Of a stretch of DNA of 64,000 nt, positions 11,573 through 25,300 are shown piece by piece (the first letter of the stretch is position 1; the number at the start of each line of letters is the position of its first letter). The stretch covers positions 620,001 through 684,000 of the forward strand of contig NZ_SGWV01000007.1 in assembly GCF_004216565.1 (NCBI RefSeq). Direction: 5' to 3'. Source of the stretch: Sphaerotilus mobilis. GTDB taxonomy: Bacteria; Pseudomonadota; Gammaproteobacteria; Burkholderiales; Burkholderiaceae_C. A program made the translations under genes and the position numbers. The notes beneath the pieces are model-generated. The model was not told the DNA's origin. It was given only the letters and a program-made list of their open reading frames with translations, and did no database searches.

Positions 11573-14500
11573 ATGGACATGGACCGGAGACAGTTCTTCC
11601 GGGTCAGTGGAGCAGGGTTGGCAGCGTCCAGCCTCGTCGCGTTGGGCTTCTCGCCCACGGCCGCCTTGGCCGAGACGCGCAGCTTCAAGCTGGCCCGGAC
11701 CACCGAGACCCGCAGCATCTGCCCGTATTGCTCGGTCAGCTGCGGAATGATCATGTACACGCTCGGCGACAAGGCGAAGAACGTCAAGTCGACCATCGTG
11801 CACGTCGAGGGCGACCCCGACCACCCGGTCAACCGCGGCACGCTGTGCCCGAAGGGCGCCGGCGTGATGGACATGATCCAGTCCAAGGATCGCGTCAAGT
11901 TCCCGCAGGTCCGCGAAGCCGGCAGCAGCGAGTGGAAGCGCCTGTCCTGGGAAGAAGCGCTGACGCGTGTGGCCACGCACATGAAGGCCGACCGCGATGC
12001 GAACTTCATCAAGGCCAACGACAAGGGCGTGACGGTCAACCGCTGGAACACGTCCGCCTTCCTGATCTCGTCCGCCTCCTCCAACGAATCCGGTTATCTG
12101 AGCGTCAAGATCGCTCGTGGCCTGGGCATGGTTGCCCTGGACACGCAAGCACGCATCTGACACGCACCGACGGTGTCCAGTCTGGGCCCGACTTTCGGTC
12201 GCGGAGCGATGACCAATTCATGGACGGATATCAAGAACACCGATCTCGTCCTGATCATGGGCGGCAATGCCGCCGAAGCCCACCCCTGCGGCTTCAAGTG
12301 GGTGACCGAGGCCATGCAGCAGCGCAAGGCCAAGCTCATCGTGGTCGACCCACGTTTCACGCGCTCGGCCGCCGTGGCCGACTTCTACGCGCCGATCCGC
12401 GTGGGGACCGACATCGCCTTCCTGGGTGGTGTCCTCAACTACCTGCTGAGCAACGAGAAGGTCCACCTCGACTACGTCAAGCTGAACACGGACGCCACCT
12501 TCCTCGTCAAGGAAGGCTACTCGTTCGATAACGGCTTCTTCAGCGGCTACAACGCCGAGAAGCGCAGCTACGACAAGTCCAGCTGGGGCTACCAGTTGGG
12601 CGAGGACGGCTTCGTCAAGGTCGACGACACCCTGCAGAACCCGCAATGCGTGTTCCAGCAGATGAAGAAGCACTATGCGCGGTACACGCCCGAGCTGGTC
12701 AGCCAGATCACCGGCACGCCCAAGGACAAGTTCCTGAAGGTGTGCGAGATGCTGGCCGGCACCTCGGCGCCCGACAAGGTGATGACCATCTGCTACGCCC
12801 TGGGCTGGACCCAGCACTCGGTGGGCTCGCAGAACATCCGCACGATGGCCATGATCCAGCTGCTGCTGGGCAACATGGGTCGTCCGGGTGGAGGCATCAA
12901 CGCGCTGCGAGGCCATGCCAACGTGCAGGGCATCACCGACATGTGTGCCTACACCGAGGTGTTGTCGGGCTACATCGGTGCACCGACCGATGCGGACGTC
13001 GACCGTGCGACCTACCTGGCCGCACGCACCGGCAAGGCGCTGCGGCCGGGCCAGATGGCCTTCACGCAGAACTTCCCGAAGTGGCAGACCAGCCTGATGA
13101 AGGCCTACTACGGCAATGCCGCGACGGCCGACAACCAGTTCGCCTACGACTGGATCCCGAAGCGGGATGGCGCCTACGACATCCTGGCCATCTTCGAGCG
13201 CATGCACCAGGGCAAGGTCAACGGCTTCATCGTGCAGGGCTTCAACCCGCTGGCGGCGGTGCCCAACAAGAAGAAGCTGTCGGAGAGCCTGGCCAAGCTG
13301 AAGTACCTGGTCATCATGGACCCGCTGGAGACCGAGACCAGCGAGTTCTGGAAGAACTACGGCCCGCTCAACGACGCCGATCCTTCCAAGATCCAGACCG
13401 AGGTCTTCCGCTTCCCGACCAGCTGCTTCGCCGAGGAGACCGGCTCCTTCACCAACTCCAGCCGCGTCATCAGCTGGAAGGAGAAGGCTGTCGACCCACC
13501 GGGCGAGGCCAAGCCGGACTCGGAAATCATGGCGCGCCTGTTCGTCAAGCTGCGCGGCATGTATGCCAAGGACGGCGGTGCGCTGCCCGAGCCGATCGCC
13601 GCGCTGAACTGGCCCTACCTGAACGCCAACGTGCCCCAGCCGGGCGAGTTGCTGCGCGAGATCTCCGGCAAGGCCTTGGTCGACCTGTTCCCGCCCGCAC
13701 CCGCAGCCGCACCTGCAGCTGCAGCAGCCATCGCAGGTGCCAAGCCGGCCGCTGCCGCTGCCAAGCCGGCCGTTGCCGCAGCCCCTGCGGCGCCGGTCGC
13801 TCCGCTGGTCAAGGCGGGCGAGCAGATCCCTGGCTTCGCGGTGCTGCGTGACGATGGCTCGACGAGCTGCGGCAACTGGATCTACGCCGGTTGCTGGGGC
13901 CCGGCGGGCAACCTGACCGCACGGCGCGACAACAGCGATCCGACCGGACTGGGCGTGTTCCCGAACTGGGGCTTCGCCTGGCCGGCCAACCGCCGCATCC
14001 TCTACAACCGCGCCTCGGCCGACAAGGACGGCAAGCCGTGGGATCCCTCGCGCAAGTACCTGGCCTGGAACGGAACGTCCTGGGCCGGTGGGGCCGACAT
14101 CCCCGACATGCGTCCGGACGCGGCTCCCGAGCAGGGCGTTGGCGCCTTCATCATGAACCCAGAAGGCGTCGCGAGACTGCATGCGGTGGGCATGAACGAG
14201 GGCCCCTTCCCCGAGCACTACGAGCCCTTCGAGACCCCGCTGGGCGTGAACCTGATGTGTCCGACCAACCCGGGCGCGGTCAGCAACCCTGCGGCGCGGG
14301 TCTACAAGGGTGACCGCGAGAACTTCGGCAAACAAGACGAGTTCCCGTATGCCGCCACGACCTACCGCCTGACCGAGCACCTGCACTACTGGACCAAGCA
14401 CTCGCGCAGCAATGCCATCGTCCAGCCCGCGCCCTTCATCGAGATCGGTGAGGAGCTGGCCAAGGAGAAGGGCATCAAGCAGGGCGACCAGGTCAAGGTG

Positions 14501-14731
14501 CGCAGCAAGCGTGGCGAGGTCATCGCGGCCTGCGTGGTGACCAAGCGCATGAAGGCTCTGGACGTCAACGGCAAGAAGGTCCACCACGTCGGCATCCCGA
14601 TCCACTGGGGCTTCAAGGGGGTGACGCAGAACGGCTACCTGGCCAATGCCCTGACCCCGTTCGTCGGCGACGCCAACTCGCAGACGCCGGAGTTCAAGGC
14701 CTTCCTCGTCAACATCGAGAAAGTGAGCTGA
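11573..14731 (+). CDS. fdnG: Formate dehydrogenase-N alpha subunit, selenocysteine-containing (in-frame UGA at codon 196)
   Basis: Catalytic molybdenum/tungsten bis-MGD subunit of the membrane-bound periplasmic formate dehydrogenase. The frame runs through a TGA at 12158-12160 (codon 196). Flanking residues [25 protein letters not shown] match the active-site context of E. coli FdnG, whose Sec is also residue 196. The N-terminus carries a Tat signal ([12 protein letters not shown]) and the 4Fe-4S motif CPYCSVSC...TLCPKG. Total length is 1,052 residues, against 1,015 in E. coli; the excess is largely an Ala/Pro-rich insert at about 706-748. AAGGAG lies 9 bases before the ATG. A hairpin just after the UGA fits a SECIS. 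Standard gene calling would split it at the UGA. Confidence 0.97.
12158..12189 (+). promoter_or_regulatory. Sec UGA codon and bacterial SECIS-like hairpin in fdnG
   Basis: The UGA (12158-12160) is followed 12 bases later by GTGTCC (12173-12178), loop AGTCT (12179-12183) and GGGCCC (12184-12189). Five of six positions can pair, counting one G-U. The loop keeps the GU expected for SelB recognition. Position and loop agree with the E. coli fdnG element; the stem sequence is different. Confidence 0.75.
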
Positions 14732-14735
14732 AGCC

Positions 14736-15602
14736 ATGGCCAGCCTGCAATCCCAGGACGTGGTGGCCCGTTCTGCCACCACGTCCCCGACGCCCCAGGT
14801 GCGGACCAACGCCCCTCAGGTCGCCAAGCTCATCGACGAGTCCAAGTGCATCGGCTGCAAGGCCTGCCAAGTGGCTTGCATGAACTGGAACGACCTGCGC
14901 GACGACATCGGCACCAACATCGGCGTGTACGACAACCCCAGCGACCTGACGGCCAGCAGCTGGACGGTGATGAAGTTCTTCGAGGTCGAGCCCGAGAACG
15001 GCAGCCTCGAATGGCTGATCCGCAAGGACGGCTGCATGCACTGCGAGGACCCGGGGTGCCTGAAGGCCTGTCCTTCACCCGGCGCGATCGTCAAGTACAG
15101 CAACGGTATCGTTGACTTCATCAGCGAAAACTGCATCGGCTGCGGCTACTGCATCAAGGGCTGCCCGTTTGACGTGCCACGCATCAGCGCGGCCGACAAC
15201 AAGGCCTACAAGTGCACGCTGTGTTCGGACCGGGTCGGCGTGGGCCTGGAACCGGCCTGCGTCAAGACCTGCCCGACGGGCGCGATCGGCTTCGGCACCA
15301 AGGAAGACATGGTGGCGTATGGCGAGAAGCGTGCCGGTGAGTTGAAGGAGCGTGGCTTCCAGAACGCGGGTCTCTACAACCCGCAAGGCGTCGGCGGCAC
15401 GCACGTCATGTACGTGCTCAAGCATGCCGACAAGCCCGAGCTGGAAGACCTGCCGGCCAACCCGTCGATCAACCCGATGGTGTCGGTCTGGAAGGGCATC
15501 GCCAAGCCGCTGGCGGTCGCGGGCATGGTTGGCGCGATGGTGGCCGGCTTCTTCCACTACATGAAGGTCGGTCCGATCGAGTCGGAAGAGGAGAAGTCAT
15601 GA
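14736..15602 (+). CDS. fdnH: Formate dehydrogenase-N beta (iron-sulfur) subunit
   Basis: Electron-transfer subunit linking FdnG to the cytochrome b subunit. In 288 residues it has four cysteine clusters for four 4Fe-4S centres: [35 protein letters not shown] and [22 protein letters not shown]-terminal hydrophobic helix ([18 protein letters not shown]) anchors it to the membrane, as in E. coli FdnH. There is no Tat signal of its own; it is expected to be exported together with FdnG. It starts 4 bases after the fdnG stop and its own stop overlaps fdnI (ATGA). Confidence 0.97.
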
Positions 15603-16219
15603 GCCGTCTGCTGCAACGCTATGGCGACTCGGAGCGCATGAACCACTGGTTCATCGCCCTGATGTTCGTGCTGGCCGGGCTGTCGGGCCTGGCCTTCTTC
15701 CACCCCAGCCTGTTCTTCTTCACCCACCTCTTCGGGGGCGGGCCCTGGACGCGCATCCTGCACCCCTTCATGGGGCTGCTGATGGTGGTGTCCTTCCTGG
15801 GCCTGTTCGTGAGGCTGTGGCGAGAGAACGTGATGACCGCCGCCGACAAGGAGTGGTCCAAGCACATGGGCGAGATGCTGCGCGGCAACAAGGCCAACCT
15901 GCCTCCGGTCGGCAAGTACAACGCCGGCCAGAAGCGGGTGTTCTGGGCCATGTCGATCAGCCTCGCGGTGCTGGTGATCACGGGCGTGATGTTCTGGCGT
16001 CCGTGGTTCGCGCCGCTGTTCCCGATCGACGTGTTGCGCATCGCGGTGCTGCTGCACTCTGTGTCGGCGATCGTGCTGGTGCTGTCGGTGATCGTGCACG
16101 TCTACGCCGCGATCTGGGTCAAGGGCACCGTCCGGGCGATGACGCGCGGCACCGTGACCGAGAACTGGGCGCGGTTGAACCACCCGCTGTGGCATGAGGA
16201 AATGACGCGTCGCCGCTGA
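15599..16219 (+). CDS. fdnI: Formate dehydrogenase-N gamma subunit, cytochrome b556
   Basis: Membrane subunit that carries two b hemes and passes electrons from formate to quinone. It is 206 residues long with four hydrophobic helices, near residues 16-36, 54-72, 115-135 and 146-168. Candidate heme-ligand histidines include HWF near residue 16, HPFMG near 55 and the [17 protein letters not shown] helix near 148-166. The ATG overlaps the fdnH stop. Confidence 0.95.
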
Positions 16220-16240
16220 CGCGCCATCGGTCTTTCCACC

Positions 16241-16279
16241 CAGGCCGGGACCGTCTTGACGAGACAGAATCCCGGCCTG
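16241..16279 (+). other. Long intercistronic hairpin between fdnI and fdhE
   Basis: CAGGCCGGGA (16241-16250) pairs perfectly with TCCCGGCCTG (16270-16279), and an inner GTCT/AGAC stem lies in the loop. No U tract follows. It may protect the fdnGHI transcript end, or reduce read-through into fdhE and selA. Confidence 0.55.
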
Positions 16280-16332
16280 ATCGCTTCTGCGACCTGATTG
16301 CCTTCACCCCGTCGTTCCAAGGAACCCGCCCG

Positions 16333-17397
16333 ATGACAGCGACCGCCACGGTCCGCGTGATGACCCCGGAAGAGATCGCCTCGCGCGCTGCCGGCGAGAC
16401 GCCCTACTTCCGCTGGCCGCAACGCCAGACGCTGTTCGCCGAGCGCGCCATGCGCCTGCGCCAACTCGCTCGTGGCCACGCCATGGGCGATTTCCTCGCC
16501 TTCATGGCCGACCTTGCCCTGGCCCAGCACCAGGCCCTGCAGGACTTCCCGACCACCGTGCCGCTGCCCGACGCCGCCGCGCTGGACCGCGCCTCGCAGC
16601 GCGGCGAGCCGCCGCTGTCGACGCTGGACTGGCCGCGTGACCCCGCCTGGCAGGCTGCGCTGCGCCAAATCTGCAGCGGCCTGCGACCCACCGCACCGGC
16701 TCCGGTGCAGGCGGTGCTGGACGGCCTGCTGGCCGCAGGAGGCGATCACCTCGAACACCAAGCCGATCGGCTGCTGACCGGGCTGATGCGCGGTCTGGAC
16801 CTGGCGAGCGCGCCGCTGATCGCCGCCGCCTTGCAGGTCTACTGGACCCATCTCGTGCTGGAGGTCCAACGCCAGCACATCGGCGGCGGTCAACCCTTCG
16901 GCCGACCTGACGACGACGCTAGCGGCGTCTGCCCCTGCTGCGGCAGCCGGCCGGTGGCCAGCATCACCCGCAGCGAGGGCGAATCGCTGGGCCAGCGCTA
17001 CCTGCACTGCGGCCTGTGCAACACCGAATGGCACCGGGTGCGCATCCAGTGCGCCCACTGCGGCAGTGGCAAGTCCATCGCTTTCCAGTCGCTGGACACC
17101 GCCGAACTGGCCGCCGACCTGGACGAGGACGAAGCCGCCGCCCGCTCGGCCCGCGCCGCCCAGGCCGCCATTCAGGCCGAGACCTGTGACGACTGCGGCC
17201 ACTACCTCAAGATCATGCACACCGACCGCGACCCGTCGGTCGATCCGGTGGCCGACGATCTGGCCTCGATCACGCTGGACCTGCTGGTCGCCGAGACCGG
17301 TCTGCAGCGCCATGGCCTGAACCTGATGCTGCTGTTCGGCGAGCCAGACGACGGCACCGACCCCGGCGGCACGCCACCCGATCCCGGAGGCGCGTGA
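16333..17397 (+). CDS. fdhE: Formate dehydrogenase accessory protein FdhE
   Basis: Cytoplasmic rubredoxin-like iron protein needed for activity of Tat-exported formate dehydrogenases. The 354-residue protein has the family's paired cysteine motifs: CPCCGSRP, CGLCNTEWHRVRIQCAHCG and CDDCGHYLKIM, followed by the C-terminal helix with LLVAETGLQRHGLNLMLLFGE. ATG start with GGAACCC upstream. It follows fdnGHI and its TGA overlaps the start of selA, tying FDH maturation to the Sec-synthesis genes. Confidence 0.96.
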   Translation: MTATATVRVMTPEEIASRAAGETPYFRWPQRQTLFAERAMRLRQLARGHAMGDFLAFMADLALAQHQALQDFPTTVPLPDAAALDRASQRGEPPLSTLDWPRDPAWQAALRQICSGLRPTAPAPVQAVLDGLLAAGGDHLEHQADRLLTGLMRGLDLASAPLIAAALQVYWTHLVLEVQRQHIGGGQPFGRPDDDASGVCPCCGSRPVASITRSEGESLGQRYLHCGLCNTEWHRVRIQCAHCGSGKSIAFQSLDTAELAADLDEDEAAARSARAAQAAIQAETCDDCGHYLKIMHTDRDPSVDPVADDLASITLDLLVAETGLQRHGLNLMLLFGEPDDGTDPGGTPPDPGGA

Positions 17398-18875
17398 TGG
17401 CGCGGCCCGACGAATCCGTGGTTCACGGTTCCAAGGCCCCCGGCGAGACAGGCTCAGCCTCTGAGCCAGCCGGCCCCAAGGACCTCCCCGCCGTCGACCG
17501 GCTGCTGCGTCTGCCCGACGTGACCGCGCTGCTGGCCGAACACGGCCACACACTGGTGGCCGGCCAGGCACGCATGCTGCTGGACGGCTTGCGTGCGCAG
17601 GCACTCACCGGCTCGCTCGACCGCGCCGACATCGCATCGGCCGCGCTGGTCGGCGCCTTGCGGCATCGCATCGACGCCACGTTGGCGCCGGCCATGCGAG
17701 CGGTCTTCAACTGCACCGGCACCGTCATCCACACCAACCTCGGCCGCGCCCTGCTGGCCGACGCGGCGCTGCAGCAGGTGATGGCGCTGATGGGCAGTCC
17801 CAACAACCTCGAATACGACCTGGCCAGCGGCGGTCGGGGCGACCGCGACAGCCTGGTCGAGGGCCTGCTGTGTCAGCTGACCGGCGCCGAGGCCGCCACC
17901 GTCGTCAACAACAACGCGGCGGCCGTGCTGCTGAGCCTCGCGGCCTTGGCGCGAGACCGCGAGGTCATCGTCTCGCGCGGCGAGCTGGTCGAGATCGGCG
18001 GCGCCTTCCGCATCCCCGATGTGATGACCGCTGCCGGCGCCCGGCTGGTCGAGGTCGGCACCACCAACCGCACCCACCCGCGCGACTACGAGAACGCCAT
18101 CGGCGAGCGCAGCGCCTTGCTGATGAAGATCCACACCAGCAACTACCAGGTGCAGGGCTTCACCGCCTCGGTCGACGAGGCCACGCTGGCCGGCATCGCC
18201 CGTCGCCACGGCCTGCCGCTGGTCAGCGACCTGGGCGCGGGCTCGCTGATCGACCTGTCGGCCCACGGTCTGCCGCGCGAGCCCATGCCGCAGGAACAAC
18301 TGGCCGCCGGCTGCCAGCTCGTCACCTTCAGCGGCGACAAACTGCTGGGCGGGCCACAGGCGGGCTTGATCGTCGGCGAGCGGGCGCTGGTCGATCGCAT
18401 TCGAAAGCACCCGATGAAGCGGGCGCTGCGCATGAGCAAGCTGCCCCTGGCCGCGCTGGAGGCCACGTTGCGCCTGTACCTGCGCCCGGAGCGCCTGGCC
18501 CGCGACCTGCCCACGCTGCGCCTGCTGACCCGTCCGCTGGCCGACATCCTGGCGACGGCAAACGCCCTGCACGCAGACGTCGAACGCGCCGTCGCGCCGC
18601 GCTACTCGGTGCAAGTGGTCGACGACCTGCTGGGCCAGATCGGCTCGGGCTCGTTGCCCATCGACCGCCTGCCATCGGCTGGCTTGGCCATCGCGCCGAT
18701 CCAGAAGAAAGGTGCCGGTCGTGCCCTGGACGAACTCGCCACCGCGCTGCGCACGCTGCCCCGCCCAGTGATCGGACGCATCACCGAGGACCGCCTGCTG
18801 CTGGACCTGCGCTGCATCGAGAATCACTTCCCTTTTGCGGCCCAGCTGCCGCTGCTTCCGGATCGCCTGGCCTGA
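17397..18875 (+). CDS. selA: L-seryl-tRNA(Sec) selenium transferase
   Basis: PLP enzyme that converts Ser-tRNA(Sec) to Sec-tRNA(Sec) using selenophosphate. The ~492-residue product contains NCTGTVIHTNLGRALLA, NNNAAAVLL, the ELVEIGGAFRIPDVM segment and the PLP-lysine loop VTFSGDKLLGGPQAG. The first ~35 residues are a Pro/Ala/Ser-rich extension before the family N-terminus. The sequence GTGATG allows two starts; GGAGG at 17386-17390 is 6 bases from the ATG at 17397, which is preferred. The start overlaps the fdhE stop. Confidence 0.97.
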   Translation: MARPDESVVHGSKAPGETGSASEPAGPKDLPAVDRLLRLPDVTALLAEHGHTLVAGQARMLLDGLRAQALTGSLDRADIASAALVGALRHRIDATLAPAMRAVFNCTGTVIHTNLGRALLADAALQQVMALMGSPNNLEYDLASGGRGDRDSLVEGLLCQLTGAEAATVVNNNAAAVLLSLAALARDREVIVSRGELVEIGGAFRIPDVMTAAGARLVEVGTTNRTHPRDYENAIGERSALLMKIHTSNYQVQGFTASVDEATLAGIARRHGLPLVSDLGAGSLIDLSAHGLPREPMPQEQLAAGCQLVTFSGDKLLGGPQAGLIVGERALVDRIRKHPMKRALRMSKLPLAALEATLRLYLRPERLARDLPTLRLLTRPLADILATANALHADVERAVAPRYSVQVVDDLLGQIGSGSLPIDRLPSAGLAIAPIQKKGAGRALDELATALRTLPRPVIGRITEDRLLLDLRCIENHFPFAAQLPLLPDRLA

Positions 18876-18925
18876 GGCGAGCCGAGTCCCCACCATCCTG
18901 ACAGGCCAAGTACCGAACCCAAACC

Positions 18926-19522
18926 ATGAACCCTGAACATCCGTTCCTCGCCGGTCCGGCGGGAGCCGATGCAGTCCCGACGCCCGACCGGCGCCGCCTG
19001 CTGCATCTGGGTTTCGCGCTGCTGACCGCCTCCACCCTGCCCGACGCTGTGCCAGCCGCAGCGCTTGAGACCGACCCGCCCGGCGCACACCGAACGCCCT
19101 GGCCACCCGCACTGCCCACGCCAACCCTCGAACTGCCCACCTGGGAAGGCCCGGTCTGGCGATTGGCCGATGCCCGCGGGCAGGTTGTCATCATCAATTT
19201 CTGGGCCACCTGGTGCGAGCCCTGCCGCGAGGAACTGCCATCGCTGGAGCTGCTGGCGCAGCGCCATGTCGATGACCGCGTGCAGGTCATCACCGTCAAC
19301 CACCGCGAGACCGACGCCACCCTGCGGCGCTACCTGGCCGCCGATCCGCTGACCCTGCCCGTGCTGCGAGACCGCGACGGCGCCGCCTCGCGCGCATGGA
19401 CGGCTCGGGTGTTCCCGACCACCGTGGTGGTCGATCGGCAGGGTCGCGCCGCCTTCAGCGTCATCGGCGAACTCGATTGGGCCGGTTCGGCACCGCGTCG
19501 CTGGCTGCGCGACATGCTCTGA
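18926..19522 (+). CDS. TlpA-like thioredoxin-fold protein with a Tat-like signal
   Basis: Predicted extracytoplasmic thiol-disulfide protein of the TlpA/ResA type. It is 198 residues long: a Tat-like leader (PDRRRLLHLGFALLTAS, AAA-like cleavage region near 48), a Pro-rich linker, then a thioredoxin fold with active site NFWATWCEPCREELPSLELL and the cis-Pro strand VFPTTVVVD. It sits between selA and the next Tat protein, upstream of selB, in the same direction. A role in keeping the selenol, cysteines or cofactor ligands of exported formate dehydrogenase reduced is plausible but is inference; a cytochrome c-type role is an alternative, though no ccm genes are nearby. Confidence 0.85.
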   Translation: MNPEHPFLAGPAGADAVPTPDRRRLLHLGFALLTASTLPDAVPAAALETDPPGAHRTPWPPALPTPTLELPTWEGPVWRLADARGQVVIINFWATWCEPCREELPSLELLAQRHVDDRVQVITVNHRETDATLRRYLAADPLTLPVLRDRDGAASRAWTARVFPTTVVVDRQGRAAFSVIGELDWAGSAPRRWLRDML

Positions 19523-19562
19523 ATCGCCACACACCGCAACCACCATCCTTCAGCCCGCTGCA

Positions 19563-19577
19563 CCGTCAACTTGACGG
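19563..19577 (+). promoter_or_regulatory. Small perfect palindrome upstream of the transglutaminase-like gene
   Basis: CCGTCAA-C-TTGACGG is a perfect 7+7 inverted repeat about 30 bases before the ATG at 19609. It could be an operator or a short hairpin; nothing identifies a binding protein. Confidence 0.3.
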
Positions 19578-19608
19578 ACCTCCCCCTCATCACCCTGGAG
19601 TCAACACC

Positions 19609-20730
19609 ATGAAACACACCCGACTGGACCGCCGCACCCTGCTTTCCACCGGCGCAGCCTTGGCCGCACCCCTGTTCGTGCCCGGCCTTGCCCGCGCCCA
19701 GGCCGCCGAGCGCCGCTTCGAACCGCAGATCGCCGGCTGGCGCACCTTCGAAGTCACGACCACCGTCCAGGTGGCCGACGTTCAAGGAGCGACGCAGCTG
19801 TGGCTGCCCATCCCCGACATCACCTCCGACTACCAGCAGTCGGTCGACAACCGCTGGAGCGGCAATGCCGACACGATCGGCCTGACGCGCGAATCGAAGC
19901 ATGGCGTCCAGATGCTGCACGCCACCTTCGCCGCCAGCAACGCCCAGCCGACCGTCACGCTGACCAGCACGCTGCGCACCCGCAACCGCGCGGTCGACTG
20001 GAACGCTCGCGCGGGGCAGGCCGAAGATCCCGCCGTGCTCAAGGCCAATCTGCAGCCCACCGAACTCAAGCCGCTCGACGGCATCGTGCGCAAGACGGCG
20101 CTGGAAGCCACCAAGGGCGCCACGACCGATGTGGACAAGGTTCGCGCGCTCTACAGCTGGGTGATTGCCAACAGCTGGCGCGAGCCCAAGACGCGCGGCT
20201 GCGGCACCGGCGACATCCAGGCCATGCTGGAGACCGGCAACCTGGGCGGCAAATGCGCTGACCTGAACGCGATCTTCGTCGGCCTGTGCCGTGCGGTGGG
20301 TGTGCCGGCGCGCGATGTCTACGGGCTGCGTCTGGTGCCGTCCGCCTTTGGCTACAAGGAACTGGGCGGGAATCCGGCCAATCTCAAAGGTGCCCAGCAT
20401 TGCCGTGCCGAGGTCTACCTCACCGGCACGGGCTGGGTGGCCATGGACCCGGCCGATGTGCTCAAGGTCATGCGCCAGGAAACGGCCGAGTGGATCAAGG
20501 ACCCTGCACACCCGATCGTCGCGCCCGTGATGAAGGGGCTGTTTGGCAGCTGGGAAGGCAACTGGGTGGGCTGGAACACCGTCAATGACCTCGTCCTGCC
20601 GGGCAGTGCCGACCGTGGCACCAAGTCCTTCCTGATGTATCCCAATGGCGAGAATGCCAGCGGCCGTTTCGACGAGTCCTCACCCGACAGCTTCAAGTAC
20701 ACGATCAGCGCACGCGAACTCAGCACCTGA
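19609..20730 (+). CDS. Tat-exported transglutaminase-like (cysteine protease fold) protein
   Basis: A 373-residue protein with a twin-arginine signal (LDRRTLLSTGAALAAPLF, cleavage near ARAQA) and a transglutaminase-like core. Likely catalytic residues are Cys in GNLGGKCADLNAIFVGLCRA, His in KGAQHCRAEVYL and Asp in GWVAMDPADV. The N-terminal ~150 residues form a beta-rich domain. Proteins of this group can be peptidases, amidases or crosslinkers, so the substrate is unknown. CTGGAG lies 8 bases before the ATG. It lies between selA and selB together with the TlpA-like gene, giving three Tat-signal proteins (with FdnG) in one locus. Confidence 0.85.
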   Translation: MKHTRLDRRTLLSTGAALAAPLFVPGLARAQAAERRFEPQIAGWRTFEVTTTVQVADVQGATQLWLPIPDITSDYQQSVDNRWSGNADTIGLTRESKHGVQMLHATFAASNAQPTVTLTSTLRTRNRAVDWNARAGQAEDPAVLKANLQPTELKPLDGIVRKTALEATKGATTDVDKVRALYSWVIANSWREPKTRGCGTGDIQAMLETGNLGGKCADLNAIFVGLCRAVGVPARDVYGLRLVPSAFGYKELGGNPANLKGAQHCRAEVYLTGTGWVAMDPADVLKVMRQETAEWIKDPAHPIVAPVMKGLFGSWEGNWVGWNTVNDLVLPGSADRGTKSFLMYPNGENASGRFDESSPDSFKYTISARELST

Positions 20731-20760
20731 GCCCACGCCCACCTTCATCCGGAGACCCCC

Positions 20761-22770
20761 ATGATCGTCGGCACCGCCGGCCACATCGACCACGGCAAGA
20801 CCACGCTGGTGAAGGCGCTGACCGGCGTCGACACCGACCGCCTGCCCGAAGAGAAGAAGCGCGGCATCAGCATCGAGCTGGGCTACGCCTTCCTCGATGT
20901 GCCCGAGGTCGACGGGCACACAGCACCGCGCATCGGCTTCATCGATGTGCCCGGCCACGAACGGCTGGTCCACACGATGCTGGCCGGTGCGACCGGCATC
21001 GACCATGCCTTGCTGCTCGTCGCTGCCGACGACGGCGTGATGCCGCAGACCCGCGAGCATCTGGCGGTGCTGTCCCTGCTGGGTCTTCGCGAGGGCGCCG
21101 TGGTCATCACCAAGGCCGATCGGGTCGACGCCGAGCGGCTCGCCGCCGTGCGCGCCGAAGCCCTTGCACTGGTGCAGGGCAGCTCGCTGGCCGACGCGCC
21201 GGTGCTCGCGGTGTCGGCCCACAGCGGCCTGGGGTTGACCGAGCTGCGCGAGCGGCTCTGGGCCGCTGCACGGGCCCATGCCGGCCGCAACGACCGTGGC
21301 GATGGGGCGTTCCGGCTGGCGATCGACCGGGCCTTCACGCTCGACGGCGTCGGCACGGTCGTCACCGGCACGGTGCATGCCGGCAGCGTCGCGGTCGGTG
21401 ATGAACTCGTTCGCATGCCCGGTGGGCAGCGTGTGCGGGTGCGCAGCCTGCACGCGCAGAACCGCGTGGTCGAACGCGCCGAGGCCGGCCAGCGCTGCGC
21501 GGTCGGCCTGGTCGGCCTGGCCAAGGACGAGATCGGCCGCGGCCAGTGGATCGTGGCACCTGCCGCTGCGCTGGCCACCGACCGGCTCGATGCGAGCTTG
21601 ACGCTCTGGCACGACGAGGCCAAGCCGCTGCGCAGCGGCACACCGGTGCATGTGCACATCGGCGCGATCGACATGCCGGGCACGGTCGCGATCCTCGATG
21701 AACACGGGGTTTCTGGCGATCCGGGACCTGCCACCGATCGCTTGATGCCCGGTGCGACCGCGCGGGTCCAGCTGATCCTGCGCAGCCCGGTCGGCGCCTG
21801 GCATGGCGACCGCGTCGTGCTGCGCGACGCCTCGGCCAGCCGCACGCTGGCCGGCGGCATCGTGCTCGACCCCCATGCGCCCACGCGCTATCGGCGCACA
21901 CCGCAGCGCCTGGCAGAACTGGCGGCGCTGGCCTTGCCGACGCTGGACGAGCGGGTGGCCGCGCTGATCGACGCGGCACCGAACGGCGTCGACCTGAACC
22001 GCCTGGCCGCTGCGCAAGGTCAGCCGCTGAGCGCCTTGCAGGCGCGGCCCCACAAGCCGTCGACCACACACAGCCACGACGGCTGGGCCCTGGGTTCGAG
22101 CCAGTCCGAGGCGGCCCGTCAGGCCCTGCTGGCCGCGCTGTCGCGCTTCCACGCCGGTCATCCCGAAGAACTCGGCCCGGACACCGCGCGGCTGCGCCGG
22201 CTGGCCCTGCCGCGCCTGCCCGAGCCGCTCTACCGAGCCCTGCTGACGGGCCTGCAGGCCGCTGCACAGGTGCTCGTGCGGGGTGCCTATGTGCACCTGC
22301 CCGAACACGGCATCCAGCTCTCAGCCACCGAGGAACGACTGGCTCAGAAGGTGAGCCCGGCCCTGGCCGCCGCAGGCTACGAAGGCGCCTGGGTGCGCGA
22401 CCTCGCGCGTGATGCCAAGGAGTCCGAGCCCTTGATGCGCGTCACGCTGGCCCGGCTCGCCCAGCGCGGCGAGCTGGTGCAAGTGGTGAAAGACCTCTAC
22501 TACCCGCCGGCCACGATGGCCAGACTCTGCGCCATCGCCCGCGAGGTCGCCCACGCCCATGACGGCGAGGTCACGGCCGCACGGTTCCGCGACGCCACGT
22601 CGCTGGGCCGCAAGCGGGCGATCCAGATCCTCGAATGCCTCGACCGCATCGGCCTGCTGCGACGGGTCGGTGATGTGCACCGGCTGCGCGCGGACAGCCA
22701 GTTGTACCGGGAAAGCGGGGATGACCGGGATGACCGGCAGACCCGCACGGCGGTGATCCGCGCGACCTGA
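20761..22770 (+). CDS. selB: Selenocysteine-specific translation elongation factor
   Basis: SelB delivers Sec-tRNA(Sec) to the ribosome at UGA and reads the SECIS hairpin. The GTPase domain shows G1 [14 protein letters not shown]2 [14 protein letters not shown]3 DVPGHE and G4 ITKAD. Domains II and III follow, and the C-terminal ~250 residues carry the winged-helix repeats that bind the mRNA hairpin. Length 669 residues is normal. ATG start with GGAGA upstream. The tRNA-Sec gene lies 32 bases downstream, so factor and tRNA are co-located. Confidence 0.97.
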
Positions 22771-22801
22771 CCCTCGGGTGCGCCGGACAGATCGGATTCA
22801 A

Positions 22802-22897
22802 GGAGGGGAAACGACCCTGGTGGGTCGGCCGGGCTTCAAACCCGGTGGGTGGCGCCATGCGTCGCCGGGTGGGTTCGACTCCCATTCCCTTCCGCCA
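22802..22897 (+). tRNA. selC: tRNA-Sec (anticodon UCA)
   Basis: A 96-nt gene with an 8-bp acceptor stem (GGAGGGGA with TCCCTTCC, one G-U), discriminator G and encoded CCA. The anticodon loop CTTCAAA contains UCA (22836-22838). The long extra arm (GTGGCGCCATGCGTCGCC region) and GTTCGACTC T-loop match bacterial tRNA-Sec, which is unusually long. It follows selB directly and reads the UGA in fdnG. Confidence 0.96.
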
Positions 22898-22928
22898 CAA
22901 CCCCACCGCAGCCTGCGGCCCCGGACAT

Positions 22929-22952
22929 AAAAAAGCCCCGCGACGGCGGGGC
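22929..22952 (-). terminator. Rho-independent terminator of clpA
   Basis: GCCCCG (22935-22940) and CGGGGC (22947-22952) form a stem followed on the minus strand by six U residues. It lies 27 bases after the clpA stop. Confidence 0.85.
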
Positions 22953-22978
22953 TTCGGGGCGGGGTCGCGGTCCGTCGA

Positions 22979-25300
22979 TCAGGCGGTCGCCGGCTCGGAC
23001 TTGGGCTTGTCGCTCTTGTTGTTGCGCGGCTCGATGTCGAGCGTGACCTCGCTCTTGTCGTCGATGTCCACCGTCAGACGGCCACCTTCGGTCAGACGGC
23101 CGAACAGCAACTCGTCGGCCAGCGCGCGGCGGATGGTGTCCTGGATCAGGCGCTGCATCGGGCGCGCGCCCATCAACGGATCGAAGCCCTTCTTGCCCAG
23201 GTGCTGGCGCAGCGCGTCGGTGAAGGTGACCTCGACCTTCTTCTCGCCGAGCTGGCTCTCGAGCTGCAGCAAGAACTTGTCGACCACCCGCAGGATGATC
23301 TCCTCGTCCAGCGCGCGGAAGCTGACGATCGCATCGAGCCGGTTGCGGAACTCGGGCGTGAACATGCGCTTGATGTCGCCCATCTCGTCGCCGCTTTCGC
23401 GCGCCGTCGTGAAGCCGATGGTGGCCTTCTGCATGGTCTCGGCGCCCGCGTTGGTCGTCATGATGACGATGACGTTGCGGAAGTCGGCCTTGCGCCCGTT
23501 GTTGTCGGTCAGCGTGCCGTGGTCCATGACCTGCAGCAGGACGTTGAAGACATCCGGATGAGCCTTCTCGATCTCATCGAGCAGCAGCACGCAGTGCGGC
23601 TTCTTGGTGACCGCCTCGGTCAGCAGGCCGCCCTGGTCGAAGCCGACATAGCCCGGAGGCGCACCGATCAGGCGGCTGACGGCGTGGCGCTCCATGTACT
23701 CGGACATGTCGAAGCGGATCAGGTCGATGCCCAGGATGTAGGCCAGCTGCTTGGCAACCTCGGTCTTGCCCACACCCGTCGGGCCGCTGAACAGGAAGGC
23801 GCCGATCGGCTTCTCGGGCTTGCCCAGGCCGGAACGCGCCATCTTGATCGCGCCGGACAGCGCGTCGATGGCCGGGTCCTGGCCGAACACGACGCTCTTG
23901 AGGTCGCGGTCCAGGCTCTTGAGCTTGGAGCGGTCGTCGCTGGACACGCTGGCCGGCGGGATGCGGGCGATCTTGGCGACGATGTCCTCGACCTCGTTGC
24001 GGGTGATCTTCTTCTTCTGCTTGCTCTTGGGCAGCACACGTTGCGCGGCACCGGCCTCGTCGATCACGTCGATCGCCTTGTCGGGCAGGTGGCGGTCATT
24101 GATGAACTTGGCCGACAGCTCGGCCGCAGCCTGCAGCGCGCCCAGGTCGTACTTGACGCTGTGGTGCTCCTCGAAGCGCGACTTCAGGCCCTTGAGAATC
24201 TCGATGGTCTGCTCGACCGAAGGCTCGACCACGTCGACCTTCTGGAAGCGCCGCGACAACGCCGCGTCCTTCTCGAAGATGCCCCGGTACTCGGTGAATG
24301 TGGTGGCACCGATGCACTTGATCTGGCCCGAGCTGAGCGCCGGCTTGAGCAGGTTGCTCGCATCGAGCGTGCCGCCCGAGGCCGCGCCGGCACCGATCAG
24401 CGTGTGGATCTCGTCGATGAACAGGATCGCGTGCGGGTGTTCCTTGAGCTGCTTGAGCACGCCCTTCAGACGCTGTTCGAAGTCGCCGCGGTACTTGGTG
24501 CCAGCCAGCAGCGCGCCCATGTCCAGCGAGTAGACGGTGGACTCGGCCAGCACGTCGGGCACGTCGGACTGGGTGATGCGCCAGGCCAGGCCCTCGGCGA
24601 TGGCAGTCTTGCCCACGCCGGCCTCGCCGACCAGCAGCGGGTTGTTCTTGCGACGACGGCAGAGCACCTGGATGACGCGTTCGACCTCGTGCTCGCGGCC
24701 GATCAGCGGATCGATGCGGCCGTCACGCGCAGCCTGGTTGAGGTTCTGCGTGTACTGGTCCAGCGGCGAGCCCTTGCCCTCGCCCTCGTCCTTGTCGGCC
24801 TCGCCGCTCGACGAGTTGCCGGTTGGCTCGCTGCCGCCGCCCTTGGTGGGCTCGGGCGGCTCGCTCTTCTTGATGCCGTGGGCGATGAAGTTGACGACGT
24901 CCAGGCGCGTCACACCCTGCTGGTGCAGGTAGTAGACGGCGTGCGAATCCTTCTCGCCGAAGATCGCCACCAGCACATTGGCGCCGGTGACTTCCTTCTT
25001 GCCGTTGCCGGTGGACTGCACATGCATGATCGCCCGCTGGATCACACGCTGGAAACCCAGCGTCGGCTGGGTGTCGACCTCATCGGTGCCCCCGACCGTG
25101 GGCGTGTTCTCCTTGATGAACTGCGAAAGACTCTTGCGCAGGTCATCGATGTTGGCGGCACAGGCCTTGAGGACCTCGGACGCCGACGGGTTGTCCAGCA
25201 GCGCGAGCAGCAGGTGCTCGACGGTGATGAACTCGTGCCGCTGCTGGCGCGCCTCGACGAACGCCATGTGCAGACTGACTTCCAACTCTTGCGCGATCAT
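22979..25300 (-). CDS. clpA: ATP-dependent Clp protease ATP-binding subunit ClpA
   Basis: Hexameric AAA+ unfoldase that feeds substrates to ClpP. The 773-residue protein has the N-domain ([18 protein letters not shown]), a first AAA module with [15 protein letters not shown] and [13 protein letters not shown], and a second with [15 protein letters not shown] and [16 protein letters not shown]. The IGF-type ClpP-binding loop is represented by the [10 protein letters not shown] region. The ATG at 25300 has a strong GGAGGT and overlaps the clpS stop (ATGA), so an upstream in-frame start is disfavoured. Second gene of clpS-clpA. Confidence 0.97.

Follow-up and report, generated by a model that had tools for sequence, protein, structure and literature searches.

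Between selA and selB, Sphaerotilus mobilis encodes TG, a transglutaminase-like protein bearing a Tat signal, whose relatives recur next to the genes of three selenium pathways: selenocysteine (Sec; selA/selB), selenouridine (selD/selU) and selenoneine (senA/senB/selD). Judged from sequence and gene neighbourhood, TG may be a cysteine enzyme that works outside the cytoplasm in selenium metabolism, at a step before the selenophosphate synthetase SelD or alongside it, a reading to which we assign a probability of roughly 0.45.

Two putatively exported proteins between selA and selB

The window, which is the whole 64,000-nucleotide stretch of S. mobilis DNA that was analysed, carries the gene order fdnGHI-fdhE-selA-tlpA-TG-selB-selC on its plus strand. 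Open reading frames and profile searches agree with the sequence-only reading, which had placed a tlpA-like gene and TG between selA and selB in the direction of fdnGHI-fdhE. The alpha subunit of a selenocysteine formate dehydrogenase is encoded by fdnG (11573..14731), present as two same-frame open reading frames split by a TGA at 12158-12160 and searched as two pieces; a SECIS element (SECIS_3, 12155..12213, Rfam RF01989, 73.4 bits versus 63) lies at their junction. Downstream are fdnH (beta subunit, 14736..15602, TIGR01582), fdnI (gamma subunit, 15599..16219, TIGR01583), fdhE (16333..17397, TIGR01562) and selA (17394..18875, TIGR00474), followed by the thioredoxin-fold gene (18926..19522), TG (19609..20730), selB (20761..22770, TIGR00475) and the tRNA-Sec gene selC (22801..22897, ARAGORN and Rfam RF01852), all on the plus strand and each TIGR match above its cut-off.

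The intergenic gaps are 50 (selA-tlpA), 86 (tlpA-TG), 30 (TG-selB) and 30 bases (selB-selC). A pattern scan of positions 16100-23000, which is weak evidence, found neither a promoter-like site nor a terminator-like site on the plus strand, the two terminator-like sites on the minus strand equalling the shuffle level. These short gaps from selA to selC, together with the lack of an internal promoter or plus-strand terminator pattern, would fit a single transcription unit. The insertion is unusual because selA and selB are, as had been supposed, usually adjacent: of 30 selB loci, taken from the best 30 of the 54 genomes with selB above cut-off, 23 have selA no more than 500 bases away and 3 have TG within 1.5 kb.

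TG of the window (373 residues) is predicted to belong to the Transglutaminase-like superfamily by both sequence criteria, the Pfam gathering score (79.1 bits for Transglut_core, PF01841, where 23 suffice) and a Cys-His-Asp triad, C216-H264-D280. The triad residues, together with C198 and C265, are invariant in all 54 high-scoring loci (at least 415 bits; see below), and where TG has HCR, three readable other transglutaminases of the same genome have HAW. TgpA is a membrane-anchored protein made up of membrane segments and a periplasmic transglutaminase domain; TG shares the fold of this domain, as seen in Pseudomonas aeruginosa (6g49, 6g4h), but TG is a protein in its own right and has a Tat signal. 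Profile searching found no sequence relative of TG in the PDB at E <= 0.01, and the putative cysteine protease of Cytophaga hutchinsonii (3isr), whose title says putative only, has 17% identity to TG. The export signal, intact triad, two extra cysteines and frequent thioredoxin neighbour of TG suggest that its chemistry in the periplasm may involve thiols or acyl transfer.

The thioredoxin-fold protein beside it (198 residues) scores above the Pfam cut-offs for the AhpC-TSA, Redoxin (PF00578/PF08534) and Thioredoxin families, and combines a WCEPC site with RRRLL close to the N-terminus, that is, the WCxxC thioredoxin fold and predicted export signal of the ResA/TlpA type. It is like the ResA/TlpA/StoA reductases in fold and WCxxC motif, with ResA and TlpA structures among its nearest PDB sequences (3kcm, 3hdc and ResA 4nmu), but lies far below the NCBIfam cut-offs for ResA (81.6 versus 170), TlpA (66.1 versus 230) and StoA (65.3 versus 210), and also under that for DsbE; we therefore call it ResA/TlpA-like and assign it to neither.

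Both window proteins carry the twin-arginine leaders ascribed to them, identified by motif or by eye (LDRRTLLSTG in TG). For TG this extends to all 42 readable N-termini of the high-scoring loci, whereas only 39 of the 67 thioredoxin matches near TG have a twin arginine, which is hence no general trait of the neighbouring protein. Nor do the two genes form a fixed module: a thioredoxin match lies within 1 kb of TG in 27 of the 54 high-scoring loci and in one of the 25 lower-scoring loci, and the other 27 high-scoring loci, with none so close, rule out an obligate pair. Among 45 TG relatives from named genomes, 36 have a thioredoxin match in the locus.

TG lies close to selenium genes more often than expected

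In an order survey of 200 genomes, with TG called at E <= 1e-50, TG was present in 40, selB (above cut-off) in 54, selD in 143 and selU (above cut-off) in 140. A profile search of 399 order genomes found 77 TG matches in 74 genomes, and these, with two further loci from the class, make up a set of 79 loci analysed with their flanks. High-scoring loci are the 54 (53 from the order, one elsewhere in the class) that reach at least 415 bits. As that line was set after the links were known, just under the weakest linked locus (416.9), the absence of sel/sen links from all 25 lower-scoring loci (20 with full flanks, 5 short) is not an independent test. These 25, L176-L189 for example, are divergent relatives with different conserved neighbours, and nine of them have Ser in place of the catalytic Cys.

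Twenty of the 54 high-scoring loci lie within 5 kb of a selA, selB, selD, selU, senA or senB gene; 30 lack any sel/sen gene over that distance although both flanks extend for 4.5 kb or more, and the remaining 4, which are unlinked, have one flank below 4.5 kb and were counted separately as short. This linkage looks well beyond chance. Were 1.5% of a genome at most that close to such genes, an assumption that corresponds to at most four stretches, each of roughly 12 kb, per 3.5 Mb, fewer than one of the 54 loci would be expected to be linked, and the binomial chance of 20 is 7e-23, a rough figure as the genomes are related. Linked loci occur in 13 of the 35 genera and in 11 of the 21 families, with a binomial chance for the genera, at an assumed 1.4%, of 7e-16 that is likewise rough for related genera. 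A quick tree of TG, which included 75 of the 79 loci, requires no fewer than 11 changes of the linked state, so that the selenium link has been made or lost repeatedly. Both states are seen within a genus, with G031 unlinked and G496 and G614 linked, and G135, G173 and G477 unlinked where G622 and G595 are linked; the latter two fall within the lower-scoring group on the tree.

The 45 relatives in named genomes were recruited with the window's TG as query and so are close kin: 13 lie within 5 kb of a selA, selB, selD, selU, senA or senB gene, 15 are unlinked although neither flank is below 4.5 kb, and 17 have a shorter flank, while a selA or selB match occurs in 9 of the 45 loci. Two TG genes with 66-67% identity (L013, L018) are on contigs labelled Phenylobacterium, through misbinning or transfer. 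The neighbourhood check proposed in the sequence-only reading is thereby divided in its outcome. The two genes do recur at other sel/fdh loci, and above chance at selenium loci, and each of their products appears to be an exported protein of the thiol type, but most of their homologues lie elsewhere.

Adjacency spans three selenium pathways

The partners of TG, their order and their orientation differ between loci. Nine of the linked loci are tied to Sec genes (the window, G000, with G187, G083, G030, G158, G138, G618, G645 and G648), in the order selA-TG-selB in G083, G618 and G645 and selB-TG in G030 and G158; selD is also near TG in G138 and G648. Leptothrix discophora is a named species in which TG is linked to selA/selB. 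Selenouridine genes occur as TG-selD-selU in G015 and selD-selU-TG in G603 and G485, and selU, checked by profile, is linked to TG in G542, while G496 and G614 have TG-thioredoxin-selD. The sen loci read TG-thioredoxin-egtD-selD-senB-senA (G580, G609, G635) or TG-egtD-selD-senB-senA (G622), with a TG-egtD-selD fragment in G595, where a contig end cuts the locus. Gene calls at these loci rest on profiles in G622 and, in G580, on profiles for egtD, selD and senA; the others come from tblastn. In Ramlibacter alkalitolerans (L036), senA-TG-merT-merP lie on one strand with senB divergent; the senA-TG gap is 47 bases to the TTG of the open reading frame or about 120 to the likely ATG, and a tblastn match places selD 2.4 kb from TG. 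The genes of the SenA-SenB-SenC selenoneine pathway (PMC10891094) are therefore neighbours of TG in five loci, plus the sixth that is cut short; TG differs from these enzymes by its export signal and is not described within the pathway in the part of that source consulted.

At E <= 1e-90, selB was not found in 16 of 26 TG genomes searched. Nine of the 20 linked genomes gave no selB match, namely those with selD-selU (G015, G485, G603), sen (G580, G609, G635 and G622, the last only 66% complete) and selD neighbours (G496, G614). For this reason selenoprotein maturation is not the common role, and confinement of TG to formate dehydrogenase or Sec systems is ruled out by the selD/selU- and sen-linked loci in genomes of this kind.

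Several loci hold further genes. MerT- or MerP-like genes were found near TG in 9 of the 128 loci scanned (L029, L032, L035, L036, L037, L039, L041, L046, L118), MerP-like matches in 8 and MerT-like in 7; MerP of L036 is above the NCBIfam cut-off and MerT of L036 and L118 below it, with that of L118 above Pfam's. The fdn-sel-TG loci L009, L019, L020, L025 and L111 encode an FCSD-like flavoprotein (PF21706 in L111, with RR leaders) and GcvH-like and DsrE-like proteins, the latter two also seen in L112 and L113; all three are possible further carriers of sulfur or selenium. Past TG, L019 (11515-13909) and L116 (12508-14980) have a gene of the 5'-nucleotidase/metallophosphatase family, SoxB-like by eye, and also a second ResA-like gene (profiles on L019 only).

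Distribution beyond the order and co-occurrence with selD

Among 274 class genomes, TG at E <= 1e-60 was found in two besides that of the window, G343 (high-scoring) and G449, both unlinked. A set of 299 phylum genomes, which played no role in forming the selenium hypothesis, added four high-scoring loci outside the class. In G749 the order is thioredoxin-TG-selD, with 188 bases to selD, beside a divergent SECIS-bearing fdnGHI-fdhE-selA, and in G821 TG is directly 3' of a SECIS-bearing fdnGHI-fdhE. An apparent selB match 4.3 kb from TG in G821 is elongation factor Tu, so this locus is linked only to the SECIS-bearing fdnGHI-fdhE. The other two, G753 with a thioredoxin only and G918 without any gene sought, are unlinked, as are the three lower-scoring loci G901, G766 and G699. 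One of the five high-scoring loci outside the order thus adjoins selD.

Of the 53 order genomes that have a high-scoring TG, 50 gave a selD match, the exceptions being G153, G486 and G655. In the 200-genome survey it was present in 27 of 28 such genomes versus 116 of 172 without (Fisher p 0.001, which ignores shared ancestry), and 23 of 25 further high-scoring TG genomes have it. The corresponding values, uncorrected for kinship, are 26/28 versus 114/172 for selU and 14/28 versus 40/172 for selB. Some genomes (G005, G012, G055, G140, G534 and others) have selD matches with an in-frame TGA, and there SelD may itself be a selenoprotein.

A possible role in selenium handling before SelD

The Sec, selenouridine and selenoneine pathways use different cytoplasmic enzymes, and their common need is a supply of selenide to SelD. 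Since SelD and this supply are what the three share, we propose that TG helps to acquire or handle selenium at a stage before SelD. Such a shared supply suggests that TG would act in the periplasm on external selenium species, where it might cleave or thiolyse thiol- or peptide-bound selenium, for example selenotrisulfides of glutathione, leading to selenium uptake. At loci that have the ResA-like thioredoxin, this protein would maintain the cysteines of TG in the reduced state or itself serve as the reductant, and a DsbD-type protein could provide its route for electrons; the genome of the window encodes one DsbD_TM protein.

A fuller version of this proposal is more doubtful. In Burkholderiales and certain other lineages of the phylum, TG, as a Tat-exported enzyme with a transglutaminase fold and three cysteines, would be at the centre of a system dedicated to acquiring selenium outside the cytoplasm. 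It would free selenium carried by thiols or peptides, assisted by a ResA-like reductant and, in some clades such as Ramlibacter with senA-TG-merT-merP, by a binder and importer of the MerP/MerT type, and the selenium would reach SelD for Sec, selenouridine or selenoneine. A Mer-based import route for selenium is imaginable, with MerP/MerT-like matches in few loci; no transporter is consistently linked to TG in the loci scanned. According to excerpts of two reviews (PMC9312934, PMC13188914), a specific high-affinity system for selenium transport has yet to be identified.

The nearest rival to selenium acquisition and handling is detoxification or redox protection, in which TG and the thioredoxin would repair or dispose of periplasmic thiols and proteins modified by reactive selenium. 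A protective role would likewise put TG with whichever selenium pathway a genome has, so this explanation draws on the same linkage data, and the three invariant cysteines of TG, the ResA-like neighbour in half of the high-scoring loci and the MerT-/MerP-like genes, which suggest thiophilic-element chemistry, are consistent with it. Detoxification predicts TG equally in selenium-exposed non-users, yet nearly all order genomes with a high-scoring TG have selD; the objection is weak, as selD is in 143 of 200 order genomes anyway, and we consider this explanation possible but rather unlikely.

Less probable again is that a general envelope cysteine peptidase or transglutaminase and its thioredoxin, with no selenium role, travel on mobile selenium islands. 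The 30 unlinked high-scoring loci, which are also a caveat to the role proposed here, as is the unlinked state of the only high-scoring class locus outside the order (G343), point in this direction, as do the adjacency of TG to alaS (by eye) or an MFS gene (by Pfam) in some clades and the fold in common with the periplasmic TgpA domain. Because sel loci may move between genomes, some co-location of TG may have been inherited with an island. Against passive carriage stand the links to selA/selB, selD/selU and sen genes in varied orders across 11 families, and the 50 of 53 genomes with selD.

The idea of the sequence-only reading, an extracytoplasmic maturation or repair module for the exported seleno-formate dehydrogenase, draws on fdhE matches in 15 of the 128 TG loci scanned (the window, L006, L009, L019, L020, L025, L027, G187, G030, G158, G138, G618, G645, G749 and G821), but is improbable as a common role, given that TG adjoins selD, selU or sen genes where selB was unmatched and that 27 of 30 selB loci (the best 30 of 54 genomes) have no TG within 1.5 kb.

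Adjacency to sel genes has pointed to selenium candidates before: YedE, YedF, DUF3343 and LysR_Se were so proposed in the part of Lin et al. (2015, PMC5322559) consulted, and TG is like them in this adjacency but differs in family. The sole mention of a transglutaminase-like gene in that part of the paper is one of Slackia, in sixth place among the STRING rows for YedF. Apart from this passing row, the literature matches listed, all open-licence papers, included no description of TG, and none combined selenoneine with transglutaminase; the word transglutaminase is absent from the main text of PMC10891094 and from PMC13188914, a 2026 review.

Formate dehydrogenase maturation is a tempting but too narrow reading of the TG locus. 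If TG is instead an enzyme of selenium handling before SelD, it would direct attention, for bacterial selenium uptake and its channelling to SelD, outside the cytoplasm.
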